Shown here: positions 8,624 to 59,936 of the stretch, piece after piece
How positions within the stretch are numbered: position 1 is the first letter of the stretch
Layout of the letters: every line of letters starts with the position of its first letter
NCBI RefSeq assembly: GCF_022899935.1
Contig: NZ_JALJCJ010000007.1
Location: forward strand, 124,001 to 188,000
Source: Shinella curvata
GTDB taxonomy: Bacteria; Pseudomonadota; Alphaproteobacteria; Rhizobiales; Rhizobiaceae
DNA: 64,000 nt
Direction: 5' to 3'
Made by a program: the position numbers and the translations under genes
Notes under the pieces: generated by a model
The model's input: the letters and a program-made list of their open reading frames with translations, nothing else
Told to the model about the DNA's origin: nothing
Databases searched by the model: none

Positions 8624-10381
8624 GTGTCTTTGTTTCAGGTCTATGCACGGGCGCTCAGCTATCTGAGCGTCTACAAGCTCAGGGTTGGCTCGGTCGTTGC
8701 CGCCAACGTCGTGCTCGCCGTGATCGCCATTGCCGAACCGATCCTGTTCGGTCGTATCATCGATGCCATCTCCTCCCAGGGCAATGTCACGCCGATGTTG
8801 CTGATGTGGGCAGGCTTCGGCCTGTTTAACACCATCGCCTTCGTGCTCGTCGCCCGCGAGGCCGACCGGCTGGCCCATGGCCGCCGCGCCAGCCTGCTGA
8901 CGGAAGCCTTCGGCCGCATTATTTCCATGCCGCTCGCCTGGCATAGCCAGCGCGGCACCTCCAACGCCCTGCATACGCTGCTGCGCGCCTGCGAGACGCT
9001 GTTCGGCCTCTGGCTCGAATTCATGCGCACACATCTGGCGACCGCCGTGGCACTCGTCCTGCTCGTGCCCACCGCCTTCGTGATGGACTACCGTCTCTCG
9101 CTGGTTCTGGTCGTGCTCGGCGCGCTCTACGTGCTGATCGGCAAGGTGGTGATGAACCGCACCCGCGAGGGCCAGGCCTCGGTCGAGAACCACTATCACA
9201 CCGTGTTCTCGCATGTGTCGGACTCCATCAGCAACGTTTCGGTCGTGCACAGCTACAACCGCATCGAGGCGGAGACGCGCGAGCTGAAGCGCTTTGCCGA
9301 GCGGCTGATCAATGCCCAGTATCCCGTGCTCGACTGGTGGGCGCTGGCCAGTGCGCTGAACCGCATTGCCTCTACCATTTCCATGATGACTATCCTCGTC
9401 ATCGGCACGGTTCTGGTGCAACGCGGCGAGATCAAGGTGGGTGACGTCATCGCTTTCATCGGCTTCGCCGGCCTGCTCATCGGCCGCCTCGACCAGATGA
9501 AGGCCTTCGTCACGCAGATCTTCGAGGCCCGGTCGAAGCTCGAGGACTTCTTCACGCTGGAAGACGCCGTCAAGGAACGCGAGGAGCCGGCCGGTGCGAG
9601 CGATCTCGGCGAGGTCAAGGGCCGAGTCGAGTTCCGCAATATCAGCTTCGACTTCGCCAATGCCACCCAGGGCGTGCGCGACGTGTCGTTCACCGCCGAA
9701 GCCGGCCAGACGGTCGCCATCGTCGGCCCGACCGGTGCCGGTAAGACGACGCTGGTCAATCTCTTGCAGCGCGTCTACGAGCCGCAGTCCGGCCAGATTC
9801 TCATCGATGGCGTCGATATTTCGACGGTGACGCGCAAGTCGCTGCGCCGCTCGATCGCCACCGTCTTCCAGGATGCTGGCCTGCTCAACCGCTCGATATC
9901 AGACAATATCCGTCTCGGCCGCGAGGGTGCGACGGAGGAGGAGATCATGGCGGCGGCGGAAGCAGCGGCGGCGAACGACTTTATCGTCTCGCGCCAGAGC
10001 GGCTACGACACCCATGTCGGCGAACGCGGCAACCGCCTGTCGGGCGGCGAGCGCCAGCGTATCGCGATTGCCCGCGCCATCCTCAAGAACGCACCGATCC
10101 TGGTGCTCGACGAGGCGACCAGCGCACTCGACGTGGAGACGGAAGCCCGCGTGAAGGCGGCAATCGACCAGCTACGTCGCAACCGCACGACCTTCATCAT
10201 CGCGCACCGCCTGTCGACGGTCCGCGAAGCCGATCTCGTGGTCTTTATGGATCACGGCAAGATCGCCGAGATGGGCACATTCAACGATCTCAGCCAGAGC
10301 AACGGCCGCTTCGCCGCCCTGCTGCGCGCCAGCGGCATTCTGACGGATGACGACGTGCGCAAGAGCCACACGGCGGCCTGA
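8624..10381 (+). CDS. ndvA: Cyclic beta-1,2-glucan exporter, ABC permease/ATPase (NdvA/ChvA)
   Basis: Inner-membrane half-transporter that exports cyclic beta-1,2-glucan made by NdvB into the periplasm; needed for osmoadaptation and plant or host interaction in rhizobia, Agrobacterium and Brucella. It has 585 residues. The N-terminal six-helix ABC membrane domain contains VSLFQVYARALSYL and EPILFGRIIDAISS. The C-terminal ATPase has Walker A GPTGAGKTT, signature LSGGERQR, Walker B ILVLDEATSALD and the switch His in IIAHRLSTV. The start is GTG at 8624, with GGAAAGG (8609-8615) 8 bases upstream and length agreeing with ChvA. The C-terminus ASGILTDDDVRKSHTAA is diagnostic of NdvA. It is convergent with the opgC-like gene. 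Confidence 0.96.
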   Translation: MSLFQVYARALSYLSVYKLRVGSVVAANVVLAVIAIAEPILFGRIIDAISSQGNVTPMLLMWAGFGLFNTIAFVLVAREADRLAHGRRASLLTEAFGRIISMPLAWHSQRGTSNALHTLLRACETLFGLWLEFMRTHLATAVALVLLVPTAFVMDYRLSLVLVVLGALYVLIGKVVMNRTREGQASVENHYHTVFSHVSDSISNVSVVHSYNRIEAETRELKRFAERLINAQYPVLDWWALASALNRIASTISMMTILVIGTVLVQRGEIKVGDVIAFIGFAGLLIGRLDQMKAFVTQIFEARSKLEDFFTLEDAVKEREEPAGASDLGEVKGRVEFRNISFDFANATQGVRDVSFTAEAGQTVAIVGPTGAGKTTLVNLLQRVYEPQSGQILIDGVDISTVTRKSLRRSIATVFQDAGLLNRSISDNIRLGREGATEEEIMAAAEAAAANDFIVSRQSGYDTHVGERGNRLSGGERQRIAIARAILKNAPILVLDEATSALDVETEARVKAAIDQLRRNRTTFIIAHRLSTVREADLVVFMDHGKIAEMGTFNDLSQSNGRFAALLRASGILTDDDVRKSHTAA

Positions 10382-10415
10382 GCGTCAGGCCCCGTACTTC
10401 GGGCTAACGCCCCTT

Positions 10416-11567
10416 CTAACCGGCAGGGCCTCGCACGCCCTGCCGTTTTGCATTGGTGCTGGCGATCACGGCGGCCTGCCAGTCGAGATAGCGCGCATAG
10501 ACGAAATGCAGCGCGATGCCGGCCAGCGCATAGAGCGTGCCCAGGACGGGGTTCTTGCCCGTGACGAACATCATCACCTGCCCGACCATGGCGAGGATCG
10601 TGCCGAAGATGAAAACGGCAAGCGAATGCCGGCCGACGGCCACCAGGGGATGCGAAAGCGGCAACGCCGCCCAGTTCGACAGAACCGGGATCGTCGCCAC
10701 CAGATAGGCACCGGCCAGCACATGCAGGAGGCGTGTGGTCGAGAGAAAAGTCTTGTCGAAGCCGGTCAGCACGGCGGGCAGGCCATAGGAGAAATCGATG
10801 TTCCACCAGGAGAACACGACCCACAGCATCGAGACGAAGATATAGGCGGCCGACAGCAAAGTGAGCATGCTGTTGCGGGGGATGCCCGTCCGTTTCGCCC
10901 TGAGCACGCCGACGAAGCCGATGACGAAGAGGAACTGCCAGGACAGCGGGTTTAGGAACCACTTGCCATCATCGAGGAAGTTCGACGGCGCGATCTGCCA
11001 GATGCCGGCGCAGAGCCAGAGCGTGCCGGAGACGGCGAGCAGCAGCAGCGCGCTTTGCCGATAGAGCCAGAGGAAGACCGGTAGCATCAGGAACAGCACG
11101 GCATACATCGAGAGGATGTTGTTGTAGCCGAACTGGTGGCCGAGCAGCACCATGCTGACGACGCCCTGTTCCGTGCGGTCGACGACGGCGCGCAGGTTGA
11201 TTTCCGAGATCAGATCCGGCCGCTCGAACCACAGGGCGCCGCCCGCGAAGATCGCGAAGGTCAGGATGCTCGTCATGATATGGGCTACATAGAGCGTCAG
11301 CGCCCGCCGCAGGATGCGCAGCGTCACCGCCAGCCGCTCCCCGACGGCAAAGCGGGAACCATAGGCAAGGCCCACCGACATGCCGGAGATCAGCACGAAG
11401 GCCTCAGCCGAATCGGAAAAACCGAAATTCTTGTGCGTCAGGTGTTCCAGATACTGGCCCGGAACGTGATTGACGAAGATCGTCAGGAGGGCGATGGCCC
11501 TGAAAACATCAAGGCGCGTGTCGCGTTGCCGCGGCACGGCGCCCGTCAGTCCGGTTTTGTCTGTCAT
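10416..11567 (-). CDS. opgC: OpgC-family acyltransferase, probable cyclic-glucan succinyl modifier
   Basis: Multi-span inner-membrane protein of about 383 residues related to OpgC, which adds succinyl groups to periplasmic glucans; Brucella Cgm is a homologue acting on cyclic beta-1,2-glucan. Visible signs are RDTRLDVFRAIALLTIFVNHVPG near the N-terminus (the family's R-D-x-R-x-D-x-R and N-H-x-P-G elements), LISGMSVGLAYG, and about ten hydrophobic segments up to the C-terminus. It starts 24 bases after the ndvB stop on the same strand, so substitution of the NdvB product is the natural inference. An in-frame GTG at 11582 would add five residues; neither start has a clear Shine-Dalgarno. The substituent (succinyl or other) is not proven. 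Confidence 0.85.
   Translation of the reverse strand: MTDKTGLTGAVPRQRDTRLDVFRAIALLTIFVNHVPGQYLEHLTHKNFGFSDSAEAFVLISGMSVGLAYGSRFAVGERLAVTLRILRRALTLYVAHIMTSILTFAIFAGGALWFERPDLISEINLRAVVDRTEQGVVSMVLLGHQFGYNNILSMYAVLFLMLPVFLWLYRQSALLLLAVSGTLWLCAGIWQIAPSNFLDDGKWFLNPLSWQFLFVIGFVGVLRAKRTGIPRNSMLTLLSAAYIFVSMLWVVFSWWNIDFSYGLPAVLTGFDKTFLSTTRLLHVLAGAYLVATIPVLSNWAALPLSHPLVAVGRHSLAVFIFGTILAMVGQVMMFVTGKNPVLGTLYALAGIALHFVYARYLDWQAAVIASTNAKRQGVRGPAG
10421..10449 (+). terminator. Terminator of ndvA lying inside the 3' end of opgC
   Basis: CGGCAGGGC (10421-10429), 7-base loop, GCCCTGCCG (10437-10445), TTTT. It lies 40 bases after the ndvA stop, and the same bases encode the last residues (AKRQGVRGPAG) of the opposing gene. 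Confidence 0.8.
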
Positions 11568-54919: not shown

Positions 54920-57900
54920 TTACTTCTTCAGCTGCTCCTTGAGCGCTGCGAGCTTTGCGAAGGGTGAATCCGGATCGATCGGCTTTTCCTTGCGGGGCGG
55001 CCGGGCCTCGAACTTGGCCTGCTGCGGCTTGGCCGAACGGTCGTTGCGCTCACCGCGATTATCGCCACGGTCCGGGCGGTTACCGCCCTGCGGCTTTCCG
55101 TCGCGGCCACCCTTGCCCTGATCCGGACGGCCACCACGGCCGCCATCACGGCGCTCACCACGCTCGCCCCGTTCACCGGCCTGCTGGCCACGGTTGCGGT
55201 CGCCGCCACGGCGTTCGCCCCGATCCTGACGTTCACCCTGGCGTTCGCCACCTTGGTGACGCTCGCCGCCGTGGCGATGACCGCCCTGGCGCTGGTTGTC
55301 GTGACGCGAGCCCGGACGCCAGAGCAGCACGGGCTTGGCTTCGACCGCTTCGCCTTCGGCGACGGCTTCCACCGCTGCCGGGGCGTCCACGGTTTCAGCA
55401 GCGGGCGCATCGGCGGGTGCGGCCGAGGCTTCGCTTTCGTCCGATGCGTCGGCATCGTGTTCGTCGGAGGTTTCCGCAGCGGCTTCCGCCGGGGTTTCCG
55501 TAGCGGCGGCGGCCGGAGCCTGCGCGGCGAGGAAGGCGGCTGCCTCTTCCGGCTTCACGCTGTCGGCACGGTAGCCGAGACCCTTGAGGATCTCTTCCAT
55601 GTCGTCGGGCGTTGCGCCGAGGATGGAGAGCATGGCGGTCGTCGCGGTGAAGCGGCGGCCATCATAGGCGCCGTCCGGGCGCGTCGTGCCCGGCTTCCAC
55701 TGAAGAAGCGGACGGATGAGGTCGGCGAGGCGCTCGAGGATATCGATGCGCACGGCGCGTTTGCCGAGGAACCGGAAGCCGGCGAGCTTGTAGAAGGCGC
55801 GCTCGAAGCTCGGATCCGTGACGACGGAGGTGCGGCCGGCGGCAAGCACCGGGATCAGGTCGCCATAACCCGGCTTGTCGAGGCCGTCATTCTTCAGCGC
55901 CCAGAGCAGCGTGATGAGTTCGGCCGGAGCCGGCTTCAGGAGTGCCAGCATGAAGATGTGGTAGGCGCCGAAGCGGATGCCGTGCTTGCGCATGGAGGCG
56001 CGGGCATCCTGGTCGAGCGTCTTGACGTCATCGGCGACATCACGGCGGAACAGCACGCCGAGATTTTCGACCAGCTGGAAGGCGAGGCCCTTGGCGAGGC
56101 CCTGCAGGTCTTCCGCGCGCGAAAGGTCGTCGAGCGGCTTGAGGACCGTCGCGATGTGATGGTTCACGAAACGCTCGATGCGGGCGGCGACGTGGTCGCG
56201 CGCATTGCCTGTCAGCTGCTCATCGGAGAGCAGGATGACGCGCGGACGCATGATGTGATCGGACGCGGCAAGACGGGCGACGGGATCGCCGAGCCAGCGC
56301 ACGGTGCCGTCGGAGCCCAGCGCGAGATCGCCGTTGCCAGCCGCATGCAGGCGCGCAGCGCGGGCTTCGAACTCCAGCGCGAGCGCCTTCTGCGCGGCAG
56401 CCTGCACGGCCTTCGCGTCGGGACCTTCCGTTCCGGAGACGAGCGTGAACCGGAAACCGGCCAACTGCCCGACATGATGTCCTTCCACGAAGACATCGCC
56501 ATTCACACTGATTTCAGCTTCCAACATTGCATTCTCTCTCAGGCGCTTCATGAGCACAGATGTCCTGCGATCAACAAAGCGTTTCGTCAACCGTTCATGT
56601 AACGCATCGGACAATCGGTCTTCGATTTCCCGCGTCTTTTCCTGCCAGTGTGTCGGATCGGCAAGCCAACCGGGCCGATTCGACACATAGGTCCAGGTCC
56701 TTATCTGCGCGATTCGCGCCGAAAGCGTGTCGATTTCGCCATCGGTACGATCCGCGCGGCGGACCTGATCTCCCATAAAATCCTCGTTAACCGTGCCACG
56801 CTTTACGAGATCCGCATAGAGCGTCGAAATAAGATCGGCGTGCTGGGCGGGCGTGATGCGGCGGTAATCGGGAAGCGCGCAAGCCTCCCAGAGTTTTTGC
56901 ACGCGCTCCGGCGTCGTCGCAAGGTCGCGGACATCGGGATAGCGCGAAAGGTGTTCGAGCGCCTGCTGGTCGACGGCCGGCAGGGCGCGCGTCAGGCCGG
57001 CAATCGGCGGGGCGGCTTCGAGCGACAGGCGCAGCGATTGCAGCGAGGAATAGTCGAAGCGGGTCGTGCGCCATTGCAGCACCTTCACCGGATCGAACTG
57101 GTGCGTCTCGATGCGCCTGACCAGCTCGTCGTCGAAGGGATCGACACGGCCCGTCACGCCGAAGGTGCCGTCGCGCAGGTGGCGGCCGGCGCGGCCGGCG
57201 ATCTGGGCAAGTTCGGCGGGGTTCAGGTTGCGGAACTGATAGCCGTCGAATTTGCGGTCCTGCGCGAAGGCGACATGGTCGACGTCGAGGTTGAGGCCCA
57301 TGCCGATCGCGTCAGTGGCGACGAGATATTCGACATCGCCCTCCTGGTAGAGCGCGACTTGGGCATTGCGGGTCCGCGGCGAGAGCGCCCCAAGCACCAC
57401 CGCGGCCCCGCCGCGCTGGCGGCGGATGAGCTCGGCGATGGCATAGACCTCGTCGGCGGAAAAGGCGACGATGGCGGTACGCTGCGGCAGGCGGGTGATT
57501 TTCTTCGAGCCGGCATAGAACAGCTGCGAGAGACGCGGGCGCTCGATGACGTGGATACCGGGCAGCATTTGCTCGAGGATCGGCTTCATCGTGCCCGCAC
57601 CGAGCAGCAGCGTCTCGTCGCGGCCCCTCAGGTGCAGCACCCGGTCGGTGAAGATATGGCCGCGTTCGAGATCGCCGGCGAGCTGCACCTCGTCGATGGC
57701 GACGAAGGAGGCGCGCGTTTCGCGCGGCATCGCCTCCACCGTGCAGACCGAGAAGCGCGCCATATGCGGCGTGATCTTCTCCTCGCCGGTGATGAGCGCC
57801 ACATTGTGCTGCCCGACCTTGTCGACGAGCCGCGTGTAGACCTCGCGCGCAAGAAGGCGCAGAGGCAGGCCGATAATGCCCGTCTCATGTGCCACCATGC

Positions 57901-58012
57901 GCTCGATTGCGTAGTGGGTCTTGCCCGTATTGGTCGGGCCGAGCACCGCGGTGACCCCGCGGCCGCTCAAGATCATGGGTGCTTGCGACAAGTCACGCCC
58001 CGGCTGTTTCAA
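54920..58012 (-). CDS. SUV3-like DExH RNA helicase with low-complexity Gly/Arg-rich tail
   Basis: 1030 residues. Helicase core: motif I VLGPTNTGKTHYAIERM (about 22-40), motif II AIDEVQLAGD (Walker B DEVQ, about 107-116), and motif VI QIAGRAGRHL. This order and the DEVQ box are those of the Suv3/mitochondrial-type helicases. The core is followed by a long alphaproteobacterial extension, then an Ala/Glu-rich acidic stretch (about 820-890), then about 100 residues rich in Gly, Arg, Asp, Gln and His (about 900-997), and a conserved end (DPDSPFAKLAALKEQLKK). The start is TTG at 58012 or ATG at 57976. RNA unwinding or decay is inferred. Confidence 0.88.
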   Translation of the reverse strand: MKQPGRDLSQAPMILSGRGVTAVLGPTNTGKTHYAIERMVAHETGIIGLPLRLLAREVYTRLVDKVGQHNVALITGEEKITPHMARFSVCTVEAMPRETRASFVAIDEVQLAGDLERGHIFTDRVLHLRGRDETLLLGAGTMKPILEQMLPGIHVIERPRLSQLFYAGSKKITRLPQRTAIVAFSADEVYAIAELIRRQRGGAAVVLGALSPRTRNAQVALYQEGDVEYLVATDAIGMGLNLDVDHVAFAQDRKFDGYQFRNLNPAELAQIAGRAGRHLRDGTFGVTGRVDPFDDELVRRIETHQFDPVKVLQWRTTRFDYSSLQSLRLSLEAAPPIAGLTRALPAVDQQALEHLSRYPDVRDLATTPERVQKLWEACALPDYRRITPAQHADLISTLYADLVKRGTVNEDFMGDQVRRADRTDGEIDTLSARIAQIRTWTYVSNRPGWLADPTHWQEKTREIEDRLSDALHERLTKRFVDRRTSVLMKRLRENAMLEAEISVNGDVFVEGHHVGQLAGFRFTLVSGTEGPDAKAVQAAAQKALALEFEARAARLHAAGNGDLALGSDGTVRWLGDPVARLAASDHIMRPRVILLSDEQLTGNARDHVAARIERFVNHHIATVLKPLDDLSRAEDLQGLAKGLAFQLVENLGVLFRRDVADDVKTLDQDARASMRKHGIRFGAYHIFMLALLKPAPAELITLLWALKNDGLDKPGYGDLIPVLAAGRTSVVTDPSFERAFYKLAGFRFLGKRAVRIDILERLADLIRPLLQWKPGTTRPDGAYDGRRFTATTAMLSILGATPDDMEEILKGLGYRADSVKPEEAAAFLAAQAPAAAATETPAEAAAETSDEHDADASDESEASAAPADAPAAETVDAPAAVEAVAEGEAVEAKPVLLWRPGSRHDNQRQGGHRHGGERHQGGERQGERQDRGERRGGDRNRGQQAGERGERGERRDGGRGGRPDQGKGGRDGKPQGGNRPDRGDNRGERNDRSAKPQQAKFEARPPRKEKPIDPDSPFAKLAALKEQLKK

Positions 58013-58286
58013 CGCTTACCGAACACGTTCGGCAGGCAACAGATGCCCATCGAGGCAGGGAATGGCAAGGGGGGATGGCGACGAAACGCCGATTGGAGCT
58101 GCTCCTGTCCTCTGCGTTTCTATTGTCCTGCGTTCTCCGGCCTCTCTTTTGAAAACCTTCTTCGCCCGGCCCCTTTCTCTGGAGCTTTTGATATTCCTTA
58201 AACTCCAGGTGGTAGTTCTGAGTCTCAGCGAGCCTATCAGCAGGTCTTGTGTTTCTTATCGCTCTTATTTGGAAATCGGGGTGGCG
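58013..58286. other. Intergenic region between helicase and CBS-HEPN gene
   Basis: About 270 bases becoming AT-richer toward the next gene. Divergent promoters must lie here. TTGATA near 58185 is a possible -35, but no good -10 follows. No terminal repeats or att-like duplication were found flanking the next gene. Confidence 0.4.
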
Positions 58287-59333
58287 ATGTCTTCGAACAG
58301 TGAGCTGAATACAGTCTTGAAGGACCTGAAAAGCGGCAGGACAGCAACACCCGTTACGATAAGAACATTTCTATCCTGGTTCGGAATGCAGCGTCGTACC
58401 GCCTCGAATGTGGATTATATAAACAATCAACTGAAGCTAACGGGAATTCGCACAGTACCCAGTTACCTCGATATCTGGGTCGATACGCCCATTACGTTCG
58501 AATTGATTTCTCAACACAAAAACGAAAACAAACCAGTTAGCGCTTCCGAGAATTCCGTCGATGCAATCGACGCTCCGGCTGAAAATAAATCGCCCGACGA
58601 TCCGTCTTTCCGTATCGGCAAGATCGAATCGGCGAGAAATTTGCCCGTTAGCGTCAAGCCCAATGCGACCTTGCAAGAAGCCATCACCATCATGCTTGCA
58701 AGAAACTTCTCACAATTGCCGGTTATGACGACCGATCGCGAGGTTAAAGGCGTCATAAGTTGGGAATCGATTGGCAGGCGCTATGTGACGAGCGGGAGCG
58801 GGAGCGAGGTTCAGCATCATATGGACGAGGCGCATGAGATTTCGGCGACGGCATCTCTATTCGCAGGCATCAAAATCATCATGGATCATGGGTATGTGCT
58901 GATACGGTCGCCAGATAAGAAGATATCGGGAATCGTGACCTCAACGGACATAACGCGGCAGTTCGAGGAAACGAGCACACCATTTCTGTTGCTGGCGGAG
59001 ATAGAGAACAATCTTCGGGCTTTGATAAGCAACAAGATAACCATAGACGATATGAAGGCCTCGTGCGCAGAGGAGTTTCTTCCAAAAAACCTGAAAAGCG
59101 CAAACGATCTCAGTTTCGGCAATTATGTAAGGATTCTTGAGAACGAGAAAAACTGGATTAGCCTCAACCTAAAGCTCGACAGAGTAACTTTTTGCGAAGA
59201 GCTGTCGAGAGTGAACGCTATAAGAAACGACGTCATGCACTTCGATCCTGACCCTCTCACGGAAGAAAATCTCTCGACATTGAGAAATGTCGCAAAAATG
59301 CTCGATCTGTTCCGAACGCTGAAAGCCTTTTAG
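58287..59333 (+). CDS. CBS-pair protein with C-terminal HEPN-type RNase motif
   Basis: 348 residues in three parts. Residues 1-75 form a small domain (TPVTIRTFLSWFGMQRRTAS, IWVDTPITFEL) often seen before CBS pairs. Residues about 110-228 are two CBS motifs (LPVMTTDREVKGVISWESIG; YVLIRSPDKKISGIVTSTDI), expected to bind adenine nucleotides. Residues about 232-348 are a helical domain with R-N-D-V-M-H at 313-318, the R-x4-H motif of HEPN ribonucleases. The gene is AT-richer than its surroundings (two sampled 60-base lines are 47-48% GC; a line inside the neighbouring helicase is 68%) and sits alone between core genes, suggesting transfer. The ATG at 58287 has GGGG 5 bases upstream. Defence or stress role is inference. 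Confidence 0.75.
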   Translation: MSSNSELNTVLKDLKSGRTATPVTIRTFLSWFGMQRRTASNVDYINNQLKLTGIRTVPSYLDIWVDTPITFELISQHKNENKPVSASENSVDAIDAPAENKSPDDPSFRIGKIESARNLPVSVKPNATLQEAITIMLARNFSQLPVMTTDREVKGVISWESIGRRYVTSGSGSEVQHHMDEAHEISATASLFAGIKIIMDHGYVLIRSPDKKISGIVTSTDITRQFEETSTPFLLLAEIENNLRALISNKITIDDMKASCAEEFLPKNLKSANDLSFGNYVRILENEKNWISLNLKLDRVTFCEELSRVNAIRNDVMHFDPDPLTEENLSTLRNVAKMLDLFRTLKAF

Positions 59334-59354
59334 CCGACCTGGATGCCAGATCGA

Positions 59355-59936
59355 TTAGACCGGATGGTCATGCAAATCCGCGCCATCCCAGCTCGCGCCC
59401 GATTCGTAAAGCGGGAAAACTTCCTCGGTGACATAAGGCCCGCCGCCGACCGATTCCTTCGAAGACATCAGCACGAAGCGGTTCACCGTGAAGGGGTTGG
59501 TGTAGAAATTGCCGCGGCCGGTGAGGTAGTGGGCGACATCCTCGGGGCGGACGTTGCGCAGGCGCGCCAGCGTGACGTGCGGCGTGAACTTGCGTGGATC
59601 GGCCGGCAGGCCAAGGCGCTGGCAGATGCGCTCGATTTCCGCCTGGAGGGCATACATGTCCGGCGCCGGCGTCACGCCGGCATAGATGGAATGCGGCTTC
59701 TTGGAGCCGAAGGAGCCCATGACCTGGAGCGTGAGCTGGAACTCAGGGCGCTCGATGCGATCGAGCTTGTCGACCACCTCGTCGGCGGTGCGGCCGTCGA
59801 TATCGCCGATGAAGCGCAGCGTGATGTGGAAATTCTCGACGTCGATCCAGCGGGCTCCGGGAAGACCGCCCCTCAGAAGCGAGAGGCTCATCGCCGCGTT
59901 GCGCGGCACTTCGAGGGCAACGAAAAGTCTCGGCAT
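59355..59936 (-). CDS. thpR: RNA 2',3'-cyclic phosphodiesterase (2'-5' RNA ligase family)
   Basis: 193 residues. The two catalytic HxTx motifs are present: HITLRFIGD (about 37-45) and HVTLARLRN (about 119-127). The family (LigT/ThpR) opens 2',3'-cyclic phosphates and can join or split 2'-5' linkages in RNA. The ATG at 59936 gives MPRLFVALEVP, the standard start. Its stop lies 21 bases from the stop of the convergent CBS-HEPN gene. Confidence 0.93.
   Translation of the reverse strand: MPRLFVALEVPRNAAMSLSLLRGGLPGARWIDVENFHITLRFIGDIDGRTADEVVDKLDRIERPEFQLTLQVMGSFGSKKPHSIYAGVTPAPDMYALQAEIERICQRLGLPADPRKFTPHVTLARLRNVRPEDVAHYLTGRGNFYTNPFTVNRFVLMSSKESVGGGPYVTEEVFPLYESGASWDGADLHDHPV

Follow-up and report, generated by a model that had tools for sequence, protein, structure and literature searches.

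A DS-11 family gene in a variable slot of a probable Rhizobiaceae chromosome

What is a lone gene of low GC content, encoding a CBS pair followed by a domain with an RNDVMH motif, doing between two core genes? The question is raised by a DNA stretch of 64,000 nucleotides (the window), in which the gene runs from 58287 to 59333 on the plus strand. The original prediction read its 348-residue product as a HEPN ribonuclease gated by nucleotide level through its CBS pair, for example during phage infection or starvation, and held that it may act alone. DS-11, as published (DeWeirdt, Mahoney and Laub, Science 2026, DefensePredictor; PMC13092281), is a one-protein CBS plus HEPN system whose anti-phage defence was validated in E. 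coli. The NCBIfam equivalog model for this family, NF053863.1 (DS11_antiphage, "CBS domain-containing anti-phage protein"), has a cut-off of 260 bits, and the window protein matched the full 305-position model with its residues 26-339 at 373.4 bits. The earlier reading is supported because the published system has the same design and the window protein lies well above the equivalog cut-off. Judged from its sequence, the window gene is thus a member of the DS-11 family, a kind of system already known and described in 2026.

A low-GC gene between core genes

The reading frame was intact, with all 348 codons open from the ATG. Alternative in-frame starts occur 5' of this ATG (GTG at 58281 and TTG at 57921), so the exact start is unproven. 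On the left lies a Suv3-type DEXQ helicase gene (54920..58012, minus strand; PF22527, E 2.1e-26), and on the right the thpR gene for RNA 2',3'-cyclic phosphodiesterase (59355..59936, minus strand; TIGR02258, 150.6 bits against a cut-off of 65.7). Both flanks, the helicase through its upstream part, occur in every one of the 20 genus relatives, bearing out the claim that the gene interrupts a core neighbourhood. It had also been described as a lone gene, and this holds; no partner gene was seen, both adjoining genes being encoded on the opposite strand and present in all 20 relatives.

The predicted difference in base composition was clear. The gene has a GC content of 0.478 and a GC3 of 0.579, against 0.589-0.666 and 0.754-0.861 for ten neighbours, and across the window, GC in 1-kb stretches is lowest on this gene. 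Counting the window's own genome, the NF053863 cut-off was exceeded in 1 of 21 genomes in the genus, 2 of 394 in the family, 3 of 385 in the class and 7 of 398 in the phylum; the gene is therefore neither universal in the genus nor of normal composition there. None of the 20 genus relatives had a match over the cut-off. Partial matches below it, at about model positions 61-193, occurred in 19 of these 20 genomes and were taken as other CBS proteins, and some match to the model was seen in 13 of 14 control genomes.

In G010, the closest genus relative by flank identity (92-93%), only 25 bp occupy the place of about 1.28 kb in the window (58075..59356). The gap between helicase and thpR (58012-59355 in the window) could be read in 19 of the 20 relatives (L113-L131), the two flanks of G001 lying on different contigs. 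It measured 25-244 bp in five relatives and 440-2551 bp in the other 14, where the longer slots held several differing open frames, some of them common to several relatives. Four of these frames were scanned, revealing a MauJ domain (G004), a Glyoxalase_8 domain (G020) and, in two, no match. We regard the gap as a variable slot because both its size and its frames differ among the relatives. No 9-bp direct repeat joined the flank stretches 57961-58290 and 59321-59450, and one inverted 9-mer was found.

In a tree of 78 rows the phyla were patchily distributed, and the window protein grouped with two Rhizobium or Rhizobiales rows (100/97). Such a tree cannot prove transfer. A phage-borne origin, as it might be seen in phage records, was set aside; 50,697 records gave no match at E 1e-5, in a search that lay outside the IMG/VR viral contigs. 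PHROGs gave one weak match to the window protein (E 0.036).

Domains and conserved residues

The predicted CBS pair was recovered by Pfam as two stretches of PF00571 (E 6.6e-13), and together with alignments this placed the pair at residues 106-228 (58602..58970, plus strand). To judge conservation we used 119 of the 120 homologues listed among 1255 found, leaving out P0002, the longer reading of the window protein itself. Position 141 was Phe in 102, Tyr in 16 and Leu in one, so that an aromatic residue was present in 118 of 119. W159 was Trp in 118 and Ser in one, and D221 was Asp in all 119. Position 141 was also mostly aromatic in 78 genome-derived sequences (Phe in 51, Tyr in 25, Cys in one and Leu in one). 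These 78 comprise 76 of 80 homologous loci, the window and the E. coli homologue, the short loci L040, L059, L063 and L092 having been dropped.

The C-terminal domain (residues 229-348; 58971..59330, plus strand) carries RNDVMH at residues 313-318 (59223..59240, plus strand), as foreseen, both in the translation and in the alignment with the E. coli homologue. A bare R-x4-H pattern counts for nothing, because 583 of 2000 shuffles of the window protein carried one by chance; its conservation does count. Conservation of R313 and H318 had been set as a point for checking, and each was present in 114 of the 119 homologues, with gaps in the other five. N314 was Asn in 114, Gln in one and a gap in four, while F319 was Phe in 114 and a gap in five. 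All four residues were invariant in the 78 genome-derived sequences. This count, however, is biased and was rejected as independent proof; it is partly by construction, because RN[DEA]VMHF[DN] was one of the two patterns used in the locus scan and is carried by 69 of the 80 loci. Among the 11 loci that had the other pattern alone, ten keep R-x4-H-F, and the frame of L040 stops before the motif.

Matches of the domain to known HEPN models were weak. PF18730 matched the window protein below threshold (E 0.15, 12.5 bits against a cut-off of 27.1). When 38 family members were scanned, HEPN_Swt1 was found at E<=1 in 15, all weak, with a best E of 0.012, and other HEPN models matched single members with a best E of 0.0061. 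A profile of the C-terminal domain, compared with nine Swt1-type HEPN domains, brought the R and the H into register at a local P of 4.3e-4 and a global P of 3.2e-5, though the probability was only 34% and 46%, respectively. Control profiles, compared locally only, gave 0.29 for the N-terminal region and 0.099 for the CBS region. Beyond the CBS region, searches of solved structures turned up nothing convincing, the hits to secretagogin (E 0.68) and trimethylamine methyltransferase (E 1.2) being at chance level. The HEPN-type assignment, weak for the window protein by itself, draws on the family model, the motif, the weak profile match and the published DS-11 work. Conservation of R-x4-H suggests that the window protein would act as an RNase, and in the available part of the DS-11 report (PMC13092281) both the RNase activity and the ligand are likewise deduced.

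That part of the report states that defence was lost on the CBS mutation Y157A or on mutation of the HEPN catalytic site, and its authors put forward an as yet undiscovered adenine derivative as the regulator of the nuclease (PMC13092281). A search of a plasmid collection by tblastn revealed an E. coli homologue of 39% identity in NZ_CP141089.1, a chromosome-sized record labelled as a plasmid. Its 365-residue frame scored 404.9 bits for NF053863. Pairwise alignment with the window protein showed 141 of 346 aligned residues to be identical (41%), placed Tyr157 opposite F141, and aligned RNDVMH at 330-335 one to one with RNDVMH at 313-318. This is presumably the very protein tested, and the Tyr at residue 157 fits the Y157 given in the part of the paper available (PMC13092281). 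When 5426 complete E. coli genomes were searched for near-identical DNA, 127 carried the gene at 99% identity or more, in each case on a chromosome. The name "CBS domain-containing anti-phage protein" stood on two of the 15 E. coli rows listed.

N-terminal to the CBS pair, residues 7-76 (58305..58514, plus strand) had no Pfam match. Within a chosen set of 35 DS-11 members (34 of 68 eligible loci plus the window), R26, R37, T56 and P58 were invariant. In the wider set of 78 rows, which includes rows lacking this domain, position 26 was Arg in 69 and position 37 was Arg in 71. The available part of PMC13092281 does not mention a conserved N-terminal domain for DS-11. The idea that the domain is a module common to many other proteins was rejected, since it was found in just six of 249 phylum genomes. 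These were the window's own, four with DS-11 matches and one with a weak match (G419, E 6.6e-4), whose frame we judged by eye to be unrelated. In a homologue from Salmonella diarizonae (L099:10001-10933), most of the N-terminal domain lies ahead of the start of the longest frame; in the tree this homologue adjoins the E. coli one on very short branches.

Neighbours of homologues and a short form

Neighbouring genes were surveyed with custom gene calling, three on each side, wherever a locus extended at least 5 kb both ways, which was so for 52 of 80. This gave 239 neighbour proteins of 110-800 aa, and PADLOC models were then scanned against 207 of them, from 46 loci, near-copies being left out and counts taken per family. 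Among the matches listed at E<=1e-8, which cover the first 25 of 35 and the first 25 of 234 matching families, were AbiU, AriA, MADS, HEC-01/04, GajA, PD-T4-2 and type I restriction. Taken as raw counts, these defence-type neighbours fit a defence family. The window locus itself shows no defence island, its flanks being core genes, and no PADLOC 2023 model matched the window protein.

Shared neighbours were few. Outside one Geobacterales-type clade of six, the largest common neighbour families linked four and three of the 52 loci. The copy in Rhizobium leguminosarum WSM1325 (71%), the closest of three from the plasmid collection, adjoins genes annotated as PIN-like and NYN-domain. Next to two close Rhizobiales homologues (L133:9501-13017 and L034:11500-15013), genes for a PIN-like and an ATP-binding protein come after on the same strand and may form another defence pair. 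In L034 the ATP-binding protein is HATPase_c_3 by Pfam.

The clade of six (L095, L096, L102, L103, L106 and L108, at about 9900-10840) represents a short form of 265-291 residues without the N-terminal domain but with R-x4-H kept. Five of these loci are named as Geobacter, Geobacteraceae or Geomonas, and one as a deltaproteobacterial bin. The two short forms that were scored exceeded the NF053863 cut-off with 347 and 339 bits. Their synteny was conserved, two neighbour families occurring in all six loci and one in five. In L095 an upstream gene was identified as MlaA. Directly downstream, at a distance of 15-42 bp and on the same strand, four of the six loci carry PPK2, identified by Pfam in L095 and by tblastn in the other three (84-88% identity). 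No match to PPK2 at E<=1e-10 was seen in the other 76 loci, many of which are short. PPK2 moves phosphate between polyphosphate and nucleotides. Because it acts on these compounds and adjoins the short form, it hints at the nature of the CBS ligand.

From these observations one could picture DS-11 as having three working parts. The N-terminal domain (residues 7-76) might sense phage, and the CBS pair might serve as an energy gate responsive to an adenine nucleotide; the Geobacterales-type short form might then be a stress version whose ligand is ADP/ATP or a polyphosphate-linked nucleotide. We hold this picture only tentatively and would sooner doubt it than expect it to be right.

Explanations and relation to known systems

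The window gene is very probably a horizontally acquired member of DS-11, working as a single-gene anti-phage system in which an adenine-type nucleotide bound by the CBS pair controls a dimeric HEPN RNase. The nucleotide would be bound in a cleft lined by F141. Phage infection would change the level or the identity of this nucleotide, and the change would gate the dimeric HEPN domain. The R313/H318 site would then cut RNA, and phage production would stop, probably by cell arrest. We infer rather than observe the RNase activity and its RNA target, the nature of the ligand, what the N-terminal domain does, and that the window copy works in its host. Counting against the DS-11 explanation are the low identity (41%) shared with the E. 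coli homologue, the Phe in place of Tyr, the lack of a PADLOC 2023 match and of an island at the locus, and the modest Swt1 profile probability of 34-46%. The short form also counts against it, since a protein over the DS-11 cut-off in conserved synteny is not typical of defence genes.

That same short form is one reason to consider a nucleotide-gated stress ribonuclease, which would serve starvation or growth control in the host and protect from phage only as a side effect. Its conserved synteny, with PPK2 in four of the six loci, is housekeeping-like, and CBS pairs sense the energy state of the cell. Anantharaman et al. proposed in 2013 that CBS-HEPN fusions let nucleotides control the stability of RNA (PMC3710099, in the part available), which points the same way. 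However, E. coli DS-11 defends against phage (PMC13092281), and the window gene does not follow a housekeeping pattern, because it is sporadic (1 of 21 genomes in the genus, 2 of 394 in the family) and is replaced by 25 bp at its site in G010. We consider a primary role in stress very unlikely. Very unlikely too, in our view, is a C-terminal domain that is no RNase at all, for instance a non-catalytic or nucleotide-handling HEPN-like domain. Some HEPN domains are indeed non-catalytic or act with nucleotidyltransferases. The available part of the DS-11 paper reports no RNase activity, but there a mutation of the catalytic residues abolished defence (PMC13092281), and R313, N314, H318 and F319 are nearly strict in the family, each present in 114 of 119 homologues with gaps and a single Gln at N314 otherwise.

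The low GC content and the lone position might instead mark a decaying or silent relic of a past transfer, and the lack of a 9-bp direct repeat between the flank stretches examined, though one inverted 9-mer occurs, would agree with this. Yet 348 codons are open, and the family-conserved residues that were checked are all intact, leaving only a very slight chance for a relic.

With an active DS-11 member as the preferred explanation, the locus shows a newly validated defence system occupying a lone and variable chromosomal slot in what is probably a Rhizobiaceae genome. At 41% identity the window protein retains the residues on which defence in E. coli depends, with Phe for Tyr at the 157 position. 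Towards the identity of the adenine derivative sensed by the CBS pair, a question raised by the published work (PMC13092281, in the part available), two direct ways lead from the PPK2 gene beside the short form and from the N-terminal domain. It is these two leads, together with the empty site, that make the locus interesting, rather than a new kind of system.

Among known systems, Swt1-type HEPN domains (PF18731) align with the C-terminal domain, R and H being in register; the match is weak, however, and their domain companions are different. RnlA, Cas13 and other HEPN RNase effectors have an R-x4-6-H catalytic motif and a dimeric RNase logic, with a gating different from that of DS-11. The window protein shares this motif with them, and none of them is among the family matches listed for it. 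The CBS-HEPN fusions of Anantharaman et al. (2013), such as alr3009 and a Pelobacter example, combine the same two domains with the same proposed ligand-regulated RNA decay, but they are a prediction only, and some carry HD domains (PMC3710099, from the part available). The closest relation is to DS-11 itself. The window protein differs from the E. coli homologue in 41% identity and in Phe rather than Tyr at the ligand position, and its gene is flanked by core genes in what is probably a Rhizobiaceae chromosome, where it would presumably protect from phage. In common, the two have a CBS pair and a HEPN-type domain in one protein, membership of one family by the equivalog cut-off, an aromatic residue at the Y157 position, the R-x4-H motif and a gene with no adjoining partner.
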